DNA from: a virus
Length of the DNA stretch: 23,802 bases
Strand: one strand, 5' to 3'
Virus record (IMG/VR): IMGVR_UViG_3300032293_000889
Location: 1-23,802 of that record
A program made the translations under genes and the position numbers. Under the pieces are notes generated by a model. It was given only the letters and a program-made list of their open reading frames with translations, was not told the origin of the DNA and searched no databases. Below are positions 2,206-23,484 of the stretch, one piece after another; positions within the stretch are counted from its first letter, which is position 1, and the number at the start of each line of letters is the position of its first letter.

Positions 2206-2471
2206 TGGAAAAAGAATGTGTATGTGGTGGTTCAGGACTTTGTCAGTGTCCACCGATAAAAATAGAACAAGTTAATCATCCTAACCATTACGGAGGAGAG
2301 GATAATCCTTATGAGGCAATAAAAGTTATTGATGCTTGGGATTTAGGATTTAGTTTAGGAAATACGGTAAAGTATATTTCAAGAGCTGGAAAAAAAGATA
2401 AAGAGTTACAGGACCTTAAGAAAGCATTATGGTACTTGCAACATCATATAGAAACACTAGAGAAAAAATGA
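2205..2471 (+). CDS. DUF3310 family protein
   Basis: This 88-residue protein matches DUF3310, a small family common in phages and sometimes annotated as nucleotide kinase, although its biochemical role is not settled. Visible family features are NHPNHYGG (about 24-31), the IKVIDAWDLGFSLGNTVKYI block, SRAGKK and the LKKALWYLQHHIE helix at the C terminus. The first 16 residues hold four Cys in a CVCGGSGLCQCPP cluster that could bind a metal; this looks like an extra N-terminal element. The ATG shares its A with the synthetase stop (TAATG), and its TGA overlaps the start of the next gene, so translation is probably coupled on both sides. Confidence 0.88.
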   Translation: MEKECVCGGSGLCQCPPIKIEQVNHPNHYGGEDNPYEAIKVIDAWDLGFSLGNTVKYISRAGKKDKELQDLKKALWYLQHHIETLEKK

Positions 2472-3397
2472 AAATAGTAGTAACAGGAGGAGCGGGGTTT
2501 ATAGGATCCGCATTTATAAATCACCTATTAGATAACTTTGAATGTGATGTTCTTTGTGTTGATAAACTAACATATGCTGGTCGTAGAATGAATCTTAAAC
2601 ACAATGTTTCTTTTTTACAAAAAGACATTTGTGATGTAACGGCAGATGAACTTGGTGATTTTGATTACATGGTTCACTTTGCTGCTGAGTCTCACGTTGA
2701 TAATTCAATTAAGAATGGGTTACCATTTGTTAGAACTAATGTTGAAGGAACATTTAATTTATTGGAGATATCAAGAAAAAATAAGAACCTTAAAAAATTC
2801 ATACACATTTCAACCGATGAGGTTTATGGGGATATGGATGAACATTTTTCAATTAATCATACGGCAACTGAAGATGATAGTTTAAAGTCTAGCTCATATT
2901 ATTCCGCAACTAAAGCGGCATCTGATATGTTAGTTTTATCTGCCAATAGAACTTATGGGTTACCATATATTATCACAAGAACTTGTAATAATTTTGGTGA
3001 ACACCAATTTGAGGAAAAGTTTTTACCTACAATTGCTAGATCAATCAATGAAGGTAAACCAATTCCAGTTTATGGTGACGGGGAACAAGTTAGAGAATGG
3101 ATGTATGTTTATGATAATGTAAAAGTTATTTGTGATTTAATGTTTGACGATGAGATTGTAAATACCACTTATAATATTGGAACAACTTTCAGAGTGACAA
3201 ATTTGGACATTATTAAAAATATTTCTTATATTTTAAACAAAGAGGTTGATATTAAACACGTTGAAGACAGATTAGGTCATGATAGGAAATATGGACTTAA
3301 TTGTACAAAACTAAGAGAATATTATATAACTAAAAATGGTGAGATTCCTAAGTTTTTAAATTTATTTGATTACTTAGATAGACAATATGGAAATTAA
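2468..3397 (+). CDS. dTDP-glucose 4,6-dehydratase-like NAD-dependent epimerase/dehydratase
   Basis: An extended short-chain dehydrogenase of 309 residues that probably acts on a nucleotide sugar in the cytoplasm, closest in wording to RmlB/RfbB (dTDP-glucose to dTDP-4-keto-6-deoxyglucose). Visible are the NAD-binding GGAGFIGS (7-14), FAAESHVD (71-78), the catalytic TDE triad in STDEVYG (115-121), the Tyr-x3-Lys pair YSATK (145-149), and NNFGEHQFEEKFLP. I chose ATG 2468 because the protein then begins directly with the MKIVVTGGAGFIG strand and overlaps the previous stop as ATGA. A longer frame from 2429 adds 13 residues inside DUF3310. It is a little shorter than the roughly 350 residues of classical RmlB, and related epimerases cannot be excluded. 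No other sugar-pathway gene is in the window. Confidence 0.9.
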   Translation: MKIVVTGGAGFIGSAFINHLLDNFECDVLCVDKLTYAGRRMNLKHNVSFLQKDICDVTADELGDFDYMVHFAAESHVDNSIKNGLPFVRTNVEGTFNLLEISRKNKNLKKFIHISTDEVYGDMDEHFSINHTATEDDSLKSSSYYSATKAASDMLVLSANRTYGLPYIITRTCNNFGEHQFEEKFLPTIARSINEGKPIPVYGDGEQVREWMYVYDNVKVICDLMFDDEIVNTTYNIGTTFRVTNLDIIKNISYILNKEVDIKHVEDRLGHDRKYGLNCTKLREYYITKNGEIPKFLNLFDYLDRQYGN

Positions 3398-3926: not shown

Positions 3927-4775
3927 ATGATAGAAACAGGAAAAATTATAAGTGGAGATTGTATTGAAGTAATGAAAACATTACCTGAAGGATCTGTGGA
4001 CTTAATTTGTACATCGCCTCCATATGGTGTCGGTATTGCTTATGATGTGCACGACGACGATGTTGAATTTGATGAGTATTTAGTATTTGCTAAGAACTGG
4101 TTAACTGAAGCGTATAACGTATTAAAAGATGATGGTCGTATTGCACTTAACATTCCTTATGAGATTAACAGACAAAAAAAAGGTGGGAGAATTTTCTTTG
4201 TTTCTGAGATGTATCAGTTAATGAAACAAATTGGATTTGGATTCTTTGGTATCGTTGATCTTGAAGAACAATCACCACATAGATCTAAGACAACGGCATG
4301 GGGTTCTTGGATGAGCCCATCAAGTCCATATATTTATAATCCAAAGGAGTGTGTGATATTAGCATACAAAAAACACCACATTAAAAAGGTTAAAGGAGAA
4401 CCTCAGTGGAAAGGGACACCTACTGACATTGAACAGGAAGATGGGTCATTAAAGAAAAAAATTGTATATGAGGAGAAGGATAAGAAAGAGTTTATGGAAC
4501 TTGTGTTTGGTCAGTGGAATTACTTTGCAGATACTAAATCACTCACCAAGGCGACTTTCTCAATGGACATACCGACCAAGGCAATTAAGATACTATCCTA
4601 CAAGAACGATGTAATATTAGATCCATTTGCTGGTTCAGGTACAACATTAGTAGCGGCTCAGATATTAGAACGTAGATGGTTAGGTATTGAGTTAAGTGAA
4701 AATTACAAACAAATTGCCGAAACAAGAATTAATTATTTCAAAGCTTTAGAACAAATAAAAGAACTCCCACTATAA
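3927..4775 (+). CDS. Beta-class DNA N4/N6 methyltransferase
   Basis: A 282-residue site-specific DNA methyltransferase that transfers a methyl group from S-adenosylmethionine to the exocyclic amino group of cytosine (N4) or adenine (N6). The catalytic motif IV TSPPYG is at residues 29-34 and the SAM-binding motif DPFAGSGTT is at 232-240, followed by LGIELSENY. Motif IV before motif I defines the beta order. SPPY is most common in N4-cytosine enzymes but is also seen in some adenine enzymes, so the base is uncertain. The intervening region includes a probable target-recognition part. No restriction endonuclease is adjacent, so this is an orphan enzyme, likely used to evade host restriction or to regulate phage DNA. 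Its stop codon sits in the loop of the terminator at 4762-4797. Confidence 0.92.
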   Translation: MIETGKIISGDCIEVMKTLPEGSVDLICTSPPYGVGIAYDVHDDDVEFDEYLVFAKNWLTEAYNVLKDDGRIALNIPYEINRQKKGGRIFFVSEMYQLMKQIGFGFFGIVDLEEQSPHRSKTTAWGSWMSPSSPYIYNPKECVILAYKKHHIKKVKGEPQWKGTPTDIEQEDGSLKKKIVYEEKDKKEFMELVFGQWNYFADTKSLTKATFSMDIPTKAIKILSYKNDVILDPFAGSGTTLVAAQILERRWLGIELSENYKQIAETRINYFKALEQIKELPL

Positions 4776-13834: not shown

Positions 13835-14953
13835 ATGGAAAATAATAATAGTGTATGTTATGTTGGTTTGATCGGTGAGATTATACCAATAGAAGGTGCG
13901 GATAACATTGAACTTGCATTGGTTGGTGGTTGGCAAGCCATCACCAAGAAAGGTGAATACCAAGTTGGTGATATGGTTGTTGTTGCAACTACCGATGCGG
14001 TTATACCACAAAAACTTTCTGATGACTTAGGTGTTACAAGTTATCTTCGTAAAGGTCAGAGAGTAAGAACTATAAAACTTCGTAAGGTTTATTCTGAATG
14101 TTTAATAATACCAATAGGGTTTGTACCTGATAAATATAGATATGATGGTTCTGACTGCATGGAGTTACTTGAAGTGTTCAAATACGAACCACCAGTTAAG
14201 ATGGTTCAGTTAAGTGGGGGTAGAAAATTTAAATACCACCAAAATCCTAACTTCAAAGTATATTACAAATTTCCTAATCAAAAGAACGTACCTGATATGT
14301 TCAATAAGGAAGATGAGGTTGTTATAACTCGTAAGTTACATGGGACTAACGCTCGTTATGGGATAGTTAGAAAGAAAAAACTTTCTTTATTAGATCGTAT
14401 CAAAATGTTATTTGGAAACCAATGGGCGGCATTTGAATACGTTTATGGTTCTCATAATGTTGAAAAAGGATCTGACTCTCAAGGTTTCTACAATACCGAT
14501 GTATGGAAGACTGTTGCAAACCAATACGATATAAGAGGTAAATTATGGGATTACGTAAAAGACACATACGAACCAAATGAGTTAACTGAAGGTGTTGTAA
14601 TATATGGTGAGATATATGGTGGTGGAATACAAAAAAACTATGACTATGGTTTAACTGATGTTAAATTTGTTGGGTTTGACATAGAGGTTGATGGTGTTTA
14701 CCAACCATACCTTAATGAAACTGTACACTTTGATTGTTTACAATTACCTAAAGTTGAATTGTTGTATCAAGGTAATTGGGATAAAGAAGAACAAGACAAA
14801 TACGTCTTTAGTAACTTCATAGAAGGAACTAAAGTTCCTCACGAAGGTATAGTTGTTAAATCTGTCACTGGTGATCGTAGAAAGGTATCTAAAGTTATCA
14901 ATCCTGATTATAGTATATTTAGTGAAAAAAATAACGTAGGTGACTCCCATTAA
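13835..14953 (+). CDS. ATP-dependent RNA ligase, DraRnl/Rnl5-like with N-terminal OB domain
   Basis: A 372-residue nucleotidyltransferase that should join 5'-phosphate and 3'-OH RNA ends through an enzyme-AMP intermediate. The AMP-accepting lysine is K167 in motif I, RKLHGTN (166-172); YGSHN follows as motif Ia; VIYGEIYGGG is motif III; FVGFDIE is IIIa; HEGIVVKS is motif IV; and a Lys-rich RRKVSKVINPDYS is motif V. About 110 residues precede motif I with beta-barrel-like content (VGLIGEIIPI, EYQVGDMVVV), matching the OB domain of the Deinococcus RNA ligase family, where the lysine falls at nearly the same position. The kinase and phosphoesterase genes upstream fit an end-healing and sealing pathway. 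The stop lies in the loop of a terminator. Confidence 0.92.
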   Translation: MENNNSVCYVGLIGEIIPIEGADNIELALVGGWQAITKKGEYQVGDMVVVATTDAVIPQKLSDDLGVTSYLRKGQRVRTIKLRKVYSECLIIPIGFVPDKYRYDGSDCMELLEVFKYEPPVKMVQLSGGRKFKYHQNPNFKVYYKFPNQKNVPDMFNKEDEVVITRKLHGTNARYGIVRKKKLSLLDRIKMLFGNQWAAFEYVYGSHNVEKGSDSQGFYNTDVWKTVANQYDIRGKLWDYVKDTYEPNELTEGVVIYGEIYGGGIQKNYDYGLTDVKFVGFDIEVDGVYQPYLNETVHFDCLQLPKVELLYQGNWDKEEQDKYVFSNFIEGTKVPHEGIVVKSVTGDRRKVSKVINPDYSIFSEKNNVGDSH

Positions 14954-16508: not shown

Positions 16509-17666
16509 ATGGAAAATAAAAAAATTATTACTGAAGAATTAAGTAGGATTAAAAATCTTATGGGTTATGATAGATCTAAAACATTAAATGAAAATATTAA
16601 TGAAGGTTGGTTTGATACTTTATATGACACTGCGGATGGTGAAATAGCGAGATATTTATTACCTTCAGGTGATATCATTACCGCAGATAAACTAAAAGGG
16701 GGACCACCTAAAGGGTCGGTACAGTTAAATAGTAAAGATGTAGAAACAGCGGTTGGAGTTGCCGGTGGGTTAAAAACCGCTTCCTCTCTTTTTGGTGGTG
16801 GAGGATCAACTGTGGCGGCAACAGGTGCTGCTAAGGCTGGAGCGGCTGCTGCTGCTGAGGCTGGAGCTGGAGCGGCTGCTGCTACTGCTGAGGTTGGAGC
16901 GGCAGCAACTACTGCGGCTGCGGCAGGTGGAGAAGCCGCTGCGGCGACTACGTTTTTAGGTTTAGGGCCTGTTGGTTGGACAATAATCGGAGTTGCCGGA
17001 ATTGCAGCACTTGGTATTTGGGCGGCAACAAAAGACGATAAAATGAGTATGATTAAAAATTTATTTGGAATTTGTAAGTCAAGTAAAGATAAGAACAAGT
17101 GGAAAAGATATATGAGTGATACTGAAGTTAGAAAAAATTCAGGTATATTATACCATGCTATGGAAGGTTTAGGAACAGATGAACCTAAAATTTATGATGT
17201 ATTTAGATTGTTTAAAAGTCCTGGTGATTTTTGTGCGGTAAGTGAAAAATATGAAAGTACATTTGACGAATCATTATTAGATGCTTTAGATGGAGACTTT
17301 GATTATGGTTGGGAACCAATTGCAAAATCTTTAGTTGATATGACTAAAAACTACGCTAAAACTGAGTCTGAAGAATATTGTAAAACTCACGTTCAGGAAT
17401 GTGCGGACAAATTAAGGTTGTATTGTGAACAAAATCCTAAAGATAATAAATGTAAAGTTTTAAAAACTAATGTTGTTGACTTTAAAAATTGTAATGGTGA
17501 ATACTATAAAGGATGTAAAGGACCAAAAATAGTACAAGTACAAAAATGTTTAGGTGTGAGCGTTGATGGTAAATTTGGTGAGGATACAGAAAAAAAATTA
17601 GAAGAAAAAATAAAAAGAAAAACTTTCAAAGACGAAGACATTAAAATAATATGTGATAAAAAATAA
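16509..17666 (+). CDS. Annexin-like repeat / peptidoglycan-binding-like protein, probably virion-associated
   Basis: A 385-residue mosaic. Residues 1-33 form a helical leader (ITEELSRIKNLMGYDRSK) ending with L-N-E (26-28), a T4-type prohead-protease site. About 96-147 is a Gly/Ala-rich stretch; 150-174 is a strongly hydrophobic, Gly-spaced segment (FLGLGPVGWTIIGVAGIAAL) that could insert in a membrane. About 212-280 reads like one annexin repeat: AMEGLGTDE (217-225), then SLLDALDGDFDYGWEPIAKSL, aligning without gaps to the second half of animal annexin repeats, with D262 at the place of the calcium-capping acidic residue. About 285-325 is Cys-rich. About 338-372 (PKIVQVQKCLGVSVDGKFGEDTEKKL) is a PG_binding_1-like unit. 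A protein delivered with the genome that acts on the host envelope would fit; no enzyme motif is visible. Confidence 0.8.
   Translation: MENKKIITEELSRIKNLMGYDRSKTLNENINEGWFDTLYDTADGEIARYLLPSGDIITADKLKGGPPKGSVQLNSKDVETAVGVAGGLKTASSLFGGGGSTVAATGAAKAGAAAAAEAGAGAAAATAEVGAAATTAAAAGGEAAAATTFLGLGPVGWTIIGVAGIAALGIWAATKDDKMSMIKNLFGICKSSKDKNKWKRYMSDTEVRKNSGILYHAMEGLGTDEPKIYDVFRLFKSPGDFCAVSEKYESTFDESLLDALDGDFDYGWEPIAKSLVDMTKNYAKTESEEYCKTHVQECADKLRLYCEQNPKDNKCKVLKTNVVDFKNCNGEYYKGCKGPKIVQVQKCLGVSVDGKFGEDTEKKLEEKIKRKTFKDEDIKIICDKK
16815..16949 (+). repeat. GC-rich Ala/Gly codon repeats
   Basis: Imperfect iterations of GCTGGAGCGGCTGCTGCT encode the Ala/Gly stretch (residues 103-147) of the 385-residue protein. 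The GC content is far above that of the surrounding DNA, and the reverse strand carries a spurious open frame as a result. Confidence 0.85.
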
Positions 17667-21253: not shown

Positions 21254-21475
21254 ATGGAAAATAGAAGTAAACATTACGGAGACGTAGAGAAATGGGTAAA
21301 AAAAGTAATTGATTCCTGTGAGACATATCAACAAACTTTTGGGGCAAAAAGTTTAATTAAAAATTTTGAGGATCAAATGAAAAGAAATAAAGTTGATAGT
21401 AGTTTAATTTGGTCTGTTAGTTCTTCCTTATATTTTGAATTAAGTTTAAAAAAAGATGAGATAATAAATGATTAA
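21254..21475 (+). CDS. Unknown helical protein, 73 residues
   Basis: A small, largely helical, basic protein (DVEKWVKKVIDSCETYQQTF, SLIKNFEDQMKR) with one Cys and no membrane segment. It starts 2 bases after the lipoprotein stop and overlaps the repeat-protein gene by 8 nt, so it is probably part of the same message. Not recognised. Confidence 0.65.
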   Translation: MENRSKHYGDVEKWVKKVIDSCETYQQTFGAKSLIKNFEDQMKRNKVDSSLIWSVSSSLYFELSLKKDEIIND

Positions 21476-22382
21476 TAATTATAAAGAATTAAAAAGAAAA
21501 GAATTTTTATTTGAGATTATTAATGATGTCATCAATGTTATGGATGTGTATAATCATAATGGATCTCTTTGGTTAATTAAAACTGAAGAATCAAAATGGG
21601 CAATTGAATTTACTAAAGATAAAACATTGTGGTATAACTACAATTTATTTAAAAATTTATTTAAGGCAATTTCTTTAGATATTTCGGAAAATCAAAAATA
21701 TGTGACCGAATGGTTTGAATCAAGATTTCTTAAACCTGAGGTGGTTGAAGATACCATTCAAAATGGGGTGAGACACACCGTCCCGATACCATTTTCGGAG
21801 TTTCATTCAGTTGAATACACAATTCAAAATGGGGTGAGACACACCGGATATGCGGGCGTTCGTATTCCATCAAAAGTTAAAGATGCTATTCAAAATGGGG
21901 TGAAACACACCCATGCGCAACGGTTCCATGAGTTCGTTGGAGTTGAAGATACCATTGAAAATGGGGTGAAAAAAACCAAAAGTATGTGTGGGAAACGTAA
22001 TGGTAGAGTTGATAATATAGTTCAAAATGGTGTTAAACATACTGAAGATGGTGATTGGTTAGATGGTGATGAAAGAATAGGAGATATTATTCAAGAAGGT
22101 GTAAAGGAGACTATTCCCACACTACGACGTACTCTTCTTGGGGTTGATGATATTGTTCAAAATGGTGTAAAAGAAACTCATGAAGATGTGTATCACCATA
22201 GACATAGAATCTTTGGTGTGATTAAAAATGGGGTTAAAGAAGTTCAACCACTACCGGCACAAGATGGGAATATGGATTGGGGTAATTATTATAACGGAAA
22301 AGAAGATAGAACAAAAACTTTTAATTCTTATCTTAATGACACAATTACATACGGTAAAAAAATTATAAAAAATGATAAATAA
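21468..22382 (+). CDS. Protein with eight 22-residue IQNGVKHT repeats
   Basis: A 304-residue protein. Residues 1-92 form an alpha/beta N-terminal region (GSLWLIKTEESKWAIEFTKD...LWYNYNLFKNLF, KYVTEWFESRF). Residues 93-269 consist of eight units of 22 residues, with one extra residue after unit five, each carrying the core (V/I)xD-T/I-I-Q-N-G-V-K-x-T followed by a variable, hydrophilic 10-residue segment. The last 35 residues are charged. The repeats might form a solenoid or a series of hairpin modules that present the variable segments, but no known repeat family is recognised. It sits in a run of small genes without structural context, so it could be a host-interaction or decoy protein. There is no signal peptide. 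Confidence 0.8.
   Translation: MINNYKELKRKEFLFEIINDVINVMDVYNHNGSLWLIKTEESKWAIEFTKDKTLWYNYNLFKNLFKAISLDISENQKYVTEWFESRFLKPEVVEDTIQNGVRHTVPIPFSEFHSVEYTIQNGVRHTGYAGVRIPSKVKDAIQNGVKHTHAQRFHEFVGVEDTIENGVKKTKSMCGKRNGRVDNIVQNGVKHTEDGDWLDGDERIGDIIQEGVKETIPTLRRTLLGVDDIVQNGVKETHEDVYHHRHRIFGVIKNGVKEVQPLPAQDGNMDWGNYYNGKEDRTKTFNSYLNDTITYGKKIIKNDK
21744..22274 (+). repeat. Eight direct repeats of about 66 bp within the gene at 21468
   Basis: Each unit contains a core like ATTCAAAATGGGGTGA and a variable 40-base part. The first two cores are identical over 25 bases (through ACACACCG), the third differs by few bases, and units 4-8 diverge progressively in wobble positions. The period of 66 bp keeps the frame throughout except for one added codon after unit five. 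Confidence 0.93.
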
Positions 22383-23073: not shown

Positions 23074-23484
23074 ATGACAAAAGTTAGAATTTATTTAGAT
23101 GATGTTCGTACACCAGTAGATCCAAGTTGGGTCGTTGTTCGTTCTTACGATGAGTTTGTTCAAAAGATAAACTCAATTGGGATGGAGAACATTGAATTGA
23201 TATCGTTAGATCACGACTTAGGTGATACTGCAATGAGAGAATGGCATTATGGTGTTGTAAAAAACTATACAATCAATTACGATAACATCACAGAAAAAAC
23301 TGGTATGGATTGTACCAAATGGTTGGTTAACCAATGGTTGGATGGTAAACCTGTTGTGGAAGTTGTGGTTCACTCTGCAAATGCCGTTGGTAGTGGTAAT
23401 ATGATGGGTTACATCAACAATTACAGACACTTAAGTAGATTGCCTCAGAATTGTGTAAGAGTACAAATAGAACATACAGTATAA
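23074..23484 (+). CDS. Cyclic-phosphate-processing receiver-like protein (cREC)
   Basis: A 136-residue protein with a receiver-like alpha/beta fold. LDDVRTP (8-14) gives the paired Asp of the receiver fold, ISLDHDLG (43-50) the central motif, and VHSANAVGSGNM (99-110) the conserved His-Ser-Ala-Asn loop. These are the marks of the cREC family, which has been linked by genome context to RNA repair and is proposed to process 2',3'-cyclic phosphates. It has its own consensus-type promoter with the ATG four bases after the -7 box. With the kinase, phosphoesterase, ligase and HAD genes in the window it supports an RNA-repair theme. The enzymatic role of cREC proteins is a prediction from comparative work, so the exact reaction remains uncertain. 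Confidence 0.82.
   Translation: MTKVRIYLDDVRTPVDPSWVVVRSYDEFVQKINSIGMENIELISLDHDLGDTAMREWHYGVVKNYTINYDNITEKTGMDCTKWLVNQWLDGKPVVEVVVHSANAVGSGNMMGYINNYRHLSRLPQNCVRVQIEHTV

Follow-up and report, generated by a model that had tools for sequence, protein, structure and literature searches.

A translated repeat array in huge T4-like phages that appears to grow like a CRISPR array

Known repeat arrays and the phage array

Huge phages carry CRISPR arrays directed against host transcription and translation genes, some of which lack integration genes and may depend on Cas proteins of the host (PMC7162821). A type II-C array of Campylobacter, with repeats of 36 bp and spacers of 30 bp, gains host-derived spacers in the presence of phages carrying a Cas4-like protein (PMC4804229). 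CRISPR look-alikes are also known in repeat proteins, where they lack spacer diversity and captured foreign sequence (PMC5294841). Further, diversity-generating retroelements provide many variants of a phage protein segment. In the open-access literature, we found no description of host DNA being captured into a translated array, and to our knowledge there is no earlier known case of captured outside DNA becoming protein.

Here, we describe an array gene in a 23.8-kb IMG/VR virus record with a GC content of 31%, the whole of which is referred to as the window. The gene encodes an N-domain of ~92 aa and, downstream of it, units consisting of a 36-nt constant core and a variable insert of ~30 nt (Table 1). 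With type II-C CRISPR arrays it shares the 36-nt repeat, the 30-nt spacer, unrelated spacers captured from genomes in either orientation, and younger repeats that are more alike at one end. Unlike these arrays, it is translated in one frame throughout with every insert in frame, its units are shuffled, it has neither a leader nor significant repeat similarity, no cas1 was found, and its spacers are solely bacterial-chromosomal as far as tested. Among the features that define CRISPR arrays, direct repeats of 21-50 nt, unrelated spacers of near-constant length and capture from other genomes are present, whereas a non-coding array and a leader are absent (455 of 455 inserts are in frame, and pN/pS is below 1). 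Being coding and leaderless, the locus does not qualify as a CRISPR array, but its growth appears to resemble that of one.

The other systems differ in similar detail. The arrays reported from huge phages likewise have spacers against host genes and sometimes lack cas integration genes, but they are described as CRISPR loci (PMC7162821), whereas the present array belongs to a conserved protein-coding gene family. The Campylobacter array has the same 36/30 geometry and takes up host DNA with phages present, yet it is chromosomal and a phage Cas4-like helper has been proposed (PMC4804229), while the present array is carried as a phage gene and Cas4 was not found. False CRISPRs have the same repeat-spacer appearance inside a coding gene (PMC5294841), and the phage array differs from them in its diverse captured inserts. 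In contrast to diversity-generating retroelements, whole inserts are replaced and differ at all positions, adenine-directed mutation is absent, and no reverse transcriptase was found in 12 incomplete phage contigs.

Table 1. Features of the array gene in the window (residues are given for inserts)
Feature	Position	Strand	Description
Array gene	21468..22382	+	304 aa; N-domain and translated repeat array; open frame; relatives in 46 loci
N-domain	21468..21743	+	helix, four strands, two helices (AlphaFold2 pLDDT ~95)
Core 1 VEDTIQNGVRHT	21744..21779	+	
Insert 1 VPIPFSEFHS	21780..21809	+	bacterial leuS piece, 28/30, sense, frame +2 (locus L269)
Core 2 VEYTIQNGVRHT	21810..21845	+	
Insert 2 GYAGVRIPSK	21846..21875	+	no source found; single 20-nt chance-like match in a GC-rich phage
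Core 3 VKDAIQNGVKHT	21876..21911	+	
Insert 3 HAQRFHEFVG	21912..21941	+	piece of a cytochrome-c-peroxidase-like bacterial gene, 29/30, sense, frame +1 (L254)
Core 4 VEDTIENGVKKT	21942..21977	+	
Insert 4 KSMCGKRNGR	21978..22007	+	old; common to 8 arrays
Core 5 VDNIVQNGVKHT	22008..22043	+	wobble-degenerate
Insert 5 EDGDWLDGDER	22044..22076	+	33 nt; old; also in distant arrays
Core 6 IGDIIQEGVKET	22077..22112	+	
Insert 6 IPTLRRTLLG	22113..22142	+	old; shared
Core 7 VDDIVQNGVKET	22143..22178	+	
Insert 7 HEDVYHHRHR	22179..22208	+	old; shared
Core 8 IFGVIKNGVKEV	22209..22244	+	
Insert 8 QPLPAQDGNMDWGNYY...	22245..22331	+	long (29 aa); conserved; common to many arrays
Core 9 LNDTITYGKKII	22332..22367	+	degenerate; after the 29-aa insert 8

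The array gene family

An earlier note on this DNA had described a constant core at 66-bp spacing with variable inserts. Eight cores indeed follow one another in ORF 21468-22382 without a stop codon, the first at 21744, at spacings of 22, 22, 22, 22, 23, 22 and 22 residues; of the array span it gave, 21744-22274, the eight cores stand and the end does not, as a degenerate ninth core lies beyond it. Its observations that the first three cores are nearly identical with later ones divergent at wobble positions, and that the inserts are more GC-rich, also hold: cores 1-3 are a few nt apart from one another before wobble drift sets in, and GC is 37-53% in the inserts compared with 25-44% in the cores. 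Tandem Repeats Finder did not report the window array because its inserts differ.

Across all arrays, 455 distinct inserts were collected, every one with a length that is a multiple of 3 and 354 of them exactly 30 nt long. The boundary between core and insert is sharp, at nt 36/37. On one side, the 36-nt core is kept at most silent positions (ACC, ATT, CAA, AAT, GGG), which is unusual at 31% GC; on the other, insert positions are near random at all three codon positions. Insert GC averages 39% across arrays, and the amino-acid composition is nearer to that of translated random DNA than to that of phage proteins. Most of the inserts are unrelated to one another, in agreement with the great diversity noted earlier from the window. 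Pairwise distances between them are either near-identical or random, with almost none intermediate, and the inserts therefore arrive whole. The stability of the core hairpin is not unusual (z -0.25 and -0.97), and old cores have lost the DNA hairpin while keeping the protein motif.

A protein scan of viral contigs recovered the array architecture in 46 further loci, and IMG/VR phage contigs contain the exact 19-nt core ACCATTCAAAATGGGGTNA in at least 119 stretches, two findings that together exclude chance for the array. Those phage matches that were read are all in frame and in the array gene family, whereas 85,000 bacterial and archaeal genomes gave 14 single matches in scattered, unrelated places. 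Altogether, 106 distinct array proteins were gathered, 96 of which have the N-domain motif. The longest of these proteins have ~25 units. Several large contigs encode a T4-type gp23 capsid protein, and for another window gene the closest annotated relatives are in uncultured phages of 634-642 kb; the array gene family belongs to huge T4-like phages. Cultured phages yielded no convincing relative of the array gene and no protospacers.

No Pfam, PHROGs, NCBIfam or PDB family matches the array protein above the curated cut-off, consistent with the earlier statement that the repeat has no named family. The structure model matches uncharacterised UniProt proteins of uncultured Caudovirales phages (A0A6J5L6U7, A0A6J5L9L5 and A0A6J5L9N2), and judging from this model, family members may already have been deposited there; the records give neither function nor capture mechanism. 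One array protein (L127:14081-14860) matches tape-measure proteins (E ~1e-6) via an I.NG[IV]K repeat, and such distant matches perhaps reflect repeat convergence.

Conserved neighbours of the array gene include a thymidylate synthase, a PcfJ-like protein, a GIY-YIG endonuclease and a kinase-like protein, with no integrase among them. In 32 loci, the thymidylate synthase gene is ~1 kb away from the array; in one of these (L059:9958-11334), the N-terminus of the enzyme, DILDNGVKKETRNGG, resembles the array core DIIQNGVKET and is a possible source of the core motif or a case of convergence. A cyclic-phosphate processing receiver domain protein (window 23074-23484) is conserved near the array in 19 loci. 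Elsewhere, the window carries a phage-borne glutamine synthetase gene (1087-2205), a sugar epimerase/dehydratase (2429-3397), a DNA methylase (3927-4775), an RNA ligase (13835-14953) and a protein (16509-17666) that has KKIITEE at its start, contains an alanine-rich stretch of repeats and gives a weak annexin-like match.

Protein-level selection is evident throughout the gene, with pN/pS values of 0.24 in an N-domain block, 0.41 in the cores and 0.42 in shared inserts (bootstrap 0.31-0.58). Therefore, the array protein is made and matters, and retained inserts come under constraint; purifying selection on the protein core, as proposed earlier, is thus borne out. Retained inserts had been expected to be neutral, but mild purifying selection was found. 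Structure prediction, to which the earlier note had looked, gave a confident N-domain and, in two predictions, low confidence for the array part; no solved structure resembles the predicted model. Profile comparison links the N-domain weakly (E 6e-6, probability 85) to a paralogous phage family of small proteins with an MKYIITES start and a WFE..FGLPVK.I end, several of which occur per larger contig (L188, L057, L111 and others). Divergent N-domain copies without an array (L184, L185, L186 and L187) lie beside array genes on the same contigs.

Source and turnover of the inserts

In a first search of 395 genomes of Bacteroidota (the phylum of Epilithonimonas) with the L045 arrays, an antisense gatA match ended exactly at the insert boundary. 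When 80 young inserts were concatenated and searched against 150 genomes of one Bacteroidota order, 53 genomes gave a match (best E 3.6e-8), whereas the same inserts reversed matched only 2 of the same 150 (E ~0.007-0.01, best 0.0065). A second set, from which already-matched inserts were left out, matched 12 of 60 genomes of one family. The match ends fall within 3 nt of the 30-nt insert boundary in 18 of 21 cases (P 4e-5) and within 1 nt in 16 of 21 (P 2e-8). Against 100 kb of matched loci, 18 inserts reach 23-29 of 30 nt and no reversed insert exceeds 22; these loci were fetched because they matched, and the reversed-insert search of 150 genomes is the fairer control.

Seventeen insert families match chromosomal genes at 24-29 of 30 nt, including leuS, a cytochrome-c peroxidase, rpoB (two places), gatA, pepP, pbp1A, a TonB receptor, an rplL-like gene and others, with gene names read from translated sequence. 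Across species, it is conserved genes that are found most easily. Ten families are in sense orientation (4, 3 and 3 by frame) and seven antisense (3, 2 and 2). Because all six frames relative to host genes occur, at random, the inserts do not mimic host peptides, and this idea was rejected. No PAM or flanking motif is visible around the 17 protospacers. The source genomes are those of related species rather than of the true hosts, which explains matches of 24-29 instead of 30 of 30, and we infer that they are relatives of the phage host.

A phage origin was also considered. All inserts were compared on both strands with 2.2 Mb of related phage DNA, of which 1.4 Mb came from flanks and 0.78 Mb from four larger phage contigs, and matches remained at about the level of shuffled inserts. 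In IMG/VR, scans with three window inserts led to other arrays, gave no match or gave a single chance-like match of 20 nt. These observations make it almost certain that bacterial-chromosome DNA has been captured into the translated array, and very probable that its source is the phage's own host and not another bacterium.

Identical cores lie next to each other 35 times, against 16.8 expected and a maximum of 23 in 500 shuffles. Such pairs are commonest near the 5' end, falling from 10% to 1% toward the 3' end, and core mismatches to the consensus increase in the same direction from 3.7 to 6.7, in line with the recent 5' duplication suggested earlier from the window. In L127, eight identical cores carry eight different inserts. 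Clustering of identical cores and 5'-to-3' divergence are what insertion duplicating a repeat predicts, and new units probably originate in this way. Acquisition is not strictly polar, because the variant found in the first core does not always recur further downstream, and the 5'-end trend for the newest units is present but blurred by shuffling. About half of the inserts are common to more than one array, and where copies of one insert were compared in pairs, 293 of 429 pairs had no neighbour in common. Insert 3 of the window, for example, is also present in L095, L100 and L107, although the N-domain of L095 is only distantly related to that of the window. Units are thus swapped between phages. 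Plain unit duplication also occurs, because L147 (3507-3902) holds one whole unit (DYFEYTNNTL) twice in tandem. Around the second array gene of L060 and L061, part of an array insert is found out of frame and 5' of a start codon and is apparently a decayed array remnant.

For the inserting enzyme, Cas1-Cas2 is a tentative candidate. Cas1, Cas4 and reverse transcriptase were absent from the 12 phage contigs searched, which are fragments, and control searches worked. In the best-matching host family, cas1 occurs in 32 of 150 genomes, often beside 36/30 or 47/30 arrays, which would be type II-C as read from their geometry. The core starts with GTTG, as host-family repeats do. Its best identity to those CRISPR repeats is 17/36, which is equalled by 22 of 200 shuffled cores and not significant, and a host CRISPR repeat was accordingly rejected as the source of the core. 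No conserved leader was found upstream of the first core, where the DNA is not conserved. The use of borrowed host Cas1-Cas2 thus remains a lead rather than a result.

Explanations and their meaning

The best overall explanation, with a probability of roughly 0.6, is a translated CRISPR-like array that grows by capture of host DNA. Each new unit would comprise a copy of the 36-bp repeat and a piece of exactly 30 bp of host chromosome, in either orientation and any frame, and only units that keep the reading frame open would survive. Recombination at repeats would then exchange units among phages, and aged repeats would drift silently while the protein motif persists. The inserter could be a Cas1-Cas2-type integrase, perhaps from a host type II-C CRISPR system with 30-bp spacers. 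The phage would benefit from a protein in which a conserved N-domain is followed by a series of 12-residue scaffolds bearing ever-new 10-residue segments. From the sequences, protein diversification fed by host DNA may be the function; this is a cautious proposal, favoured over a guide array and over a decoy for host CRISPR adaptation. That the gene is a dedicated diversity generator, in which CRISPR-like capture into an open reading frame writes sequence memory directly into protein, has slightly less than an even chance. The earlier interpretation of the array had diversity, 5' growth and selection right, and missed the bacterial-chromosome origin and the CRISPR-like geometry of 36 + 30.

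The array might instead supply guides, with host Cas proteins processing its RNA to bind or cut host genes and translation being incidental. Spacer-like inserts in both orientations, including pieces of transcription and translation genes (leuS, rpoB and gatA), would suit this purpose, and the possibly host Cas-served arrays of huge phages offer a precedent (PMC7162821). However, the ease of detecting conserved source genes would produce the same bias, guides need neither a frame kept in 455 of 455 inserts nor protein-level selection, and it is the DNA hairpin, not the protein motif, that has gone from old cores; we regard guides as unlikely. It is also improbable that the array is a trap or by-product, in which host Cas1-Cas2 inserts spacers off-target into a repeat-like phage gene that either keeps phage spacers out of the host array or is tolerated. 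The 36/30 geometry is that of host-family arrays of period 66, the GTTG start is shared with them, and the Campylobacter type II-C 36/30 array takes only host-derived spacers with phages carrying a Cas4-like protein (PMC4804229). Yet core-repeat similarity is not significant and a leader is missing, and phage DNA, which should abound during infection, has left no insert matching the 2.2 Mb of related phage sequence. Nor is the array a mere scar, because nearly all family members keep one whose old units show conservation at the protein level. An ordinary hypervariable repeat protein, with inserts arising by mutation, duplication and recombination among phages, would account for the shared and shuffled units and for the tandem unit of L147, but it is contradicted by chromosomal matches at exact insert boundaries that are absent from reversed controls, and by the near absence of intermediate insert distances, and is hardly tenable.

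Capture of host DNA into a translated array raises the question of whether the enzymes of host CRISPR adaptation insert sequence into genes of phages. If the explanation is true, it would add a third route, beside CRISPR memory and retroelement diversification, to diversifying a gene or array by pieces of fixed length, and the origin of new protein segments from random DNA would become testable. The array would also be a heritable record of the bacteria that a huge phage has infected.
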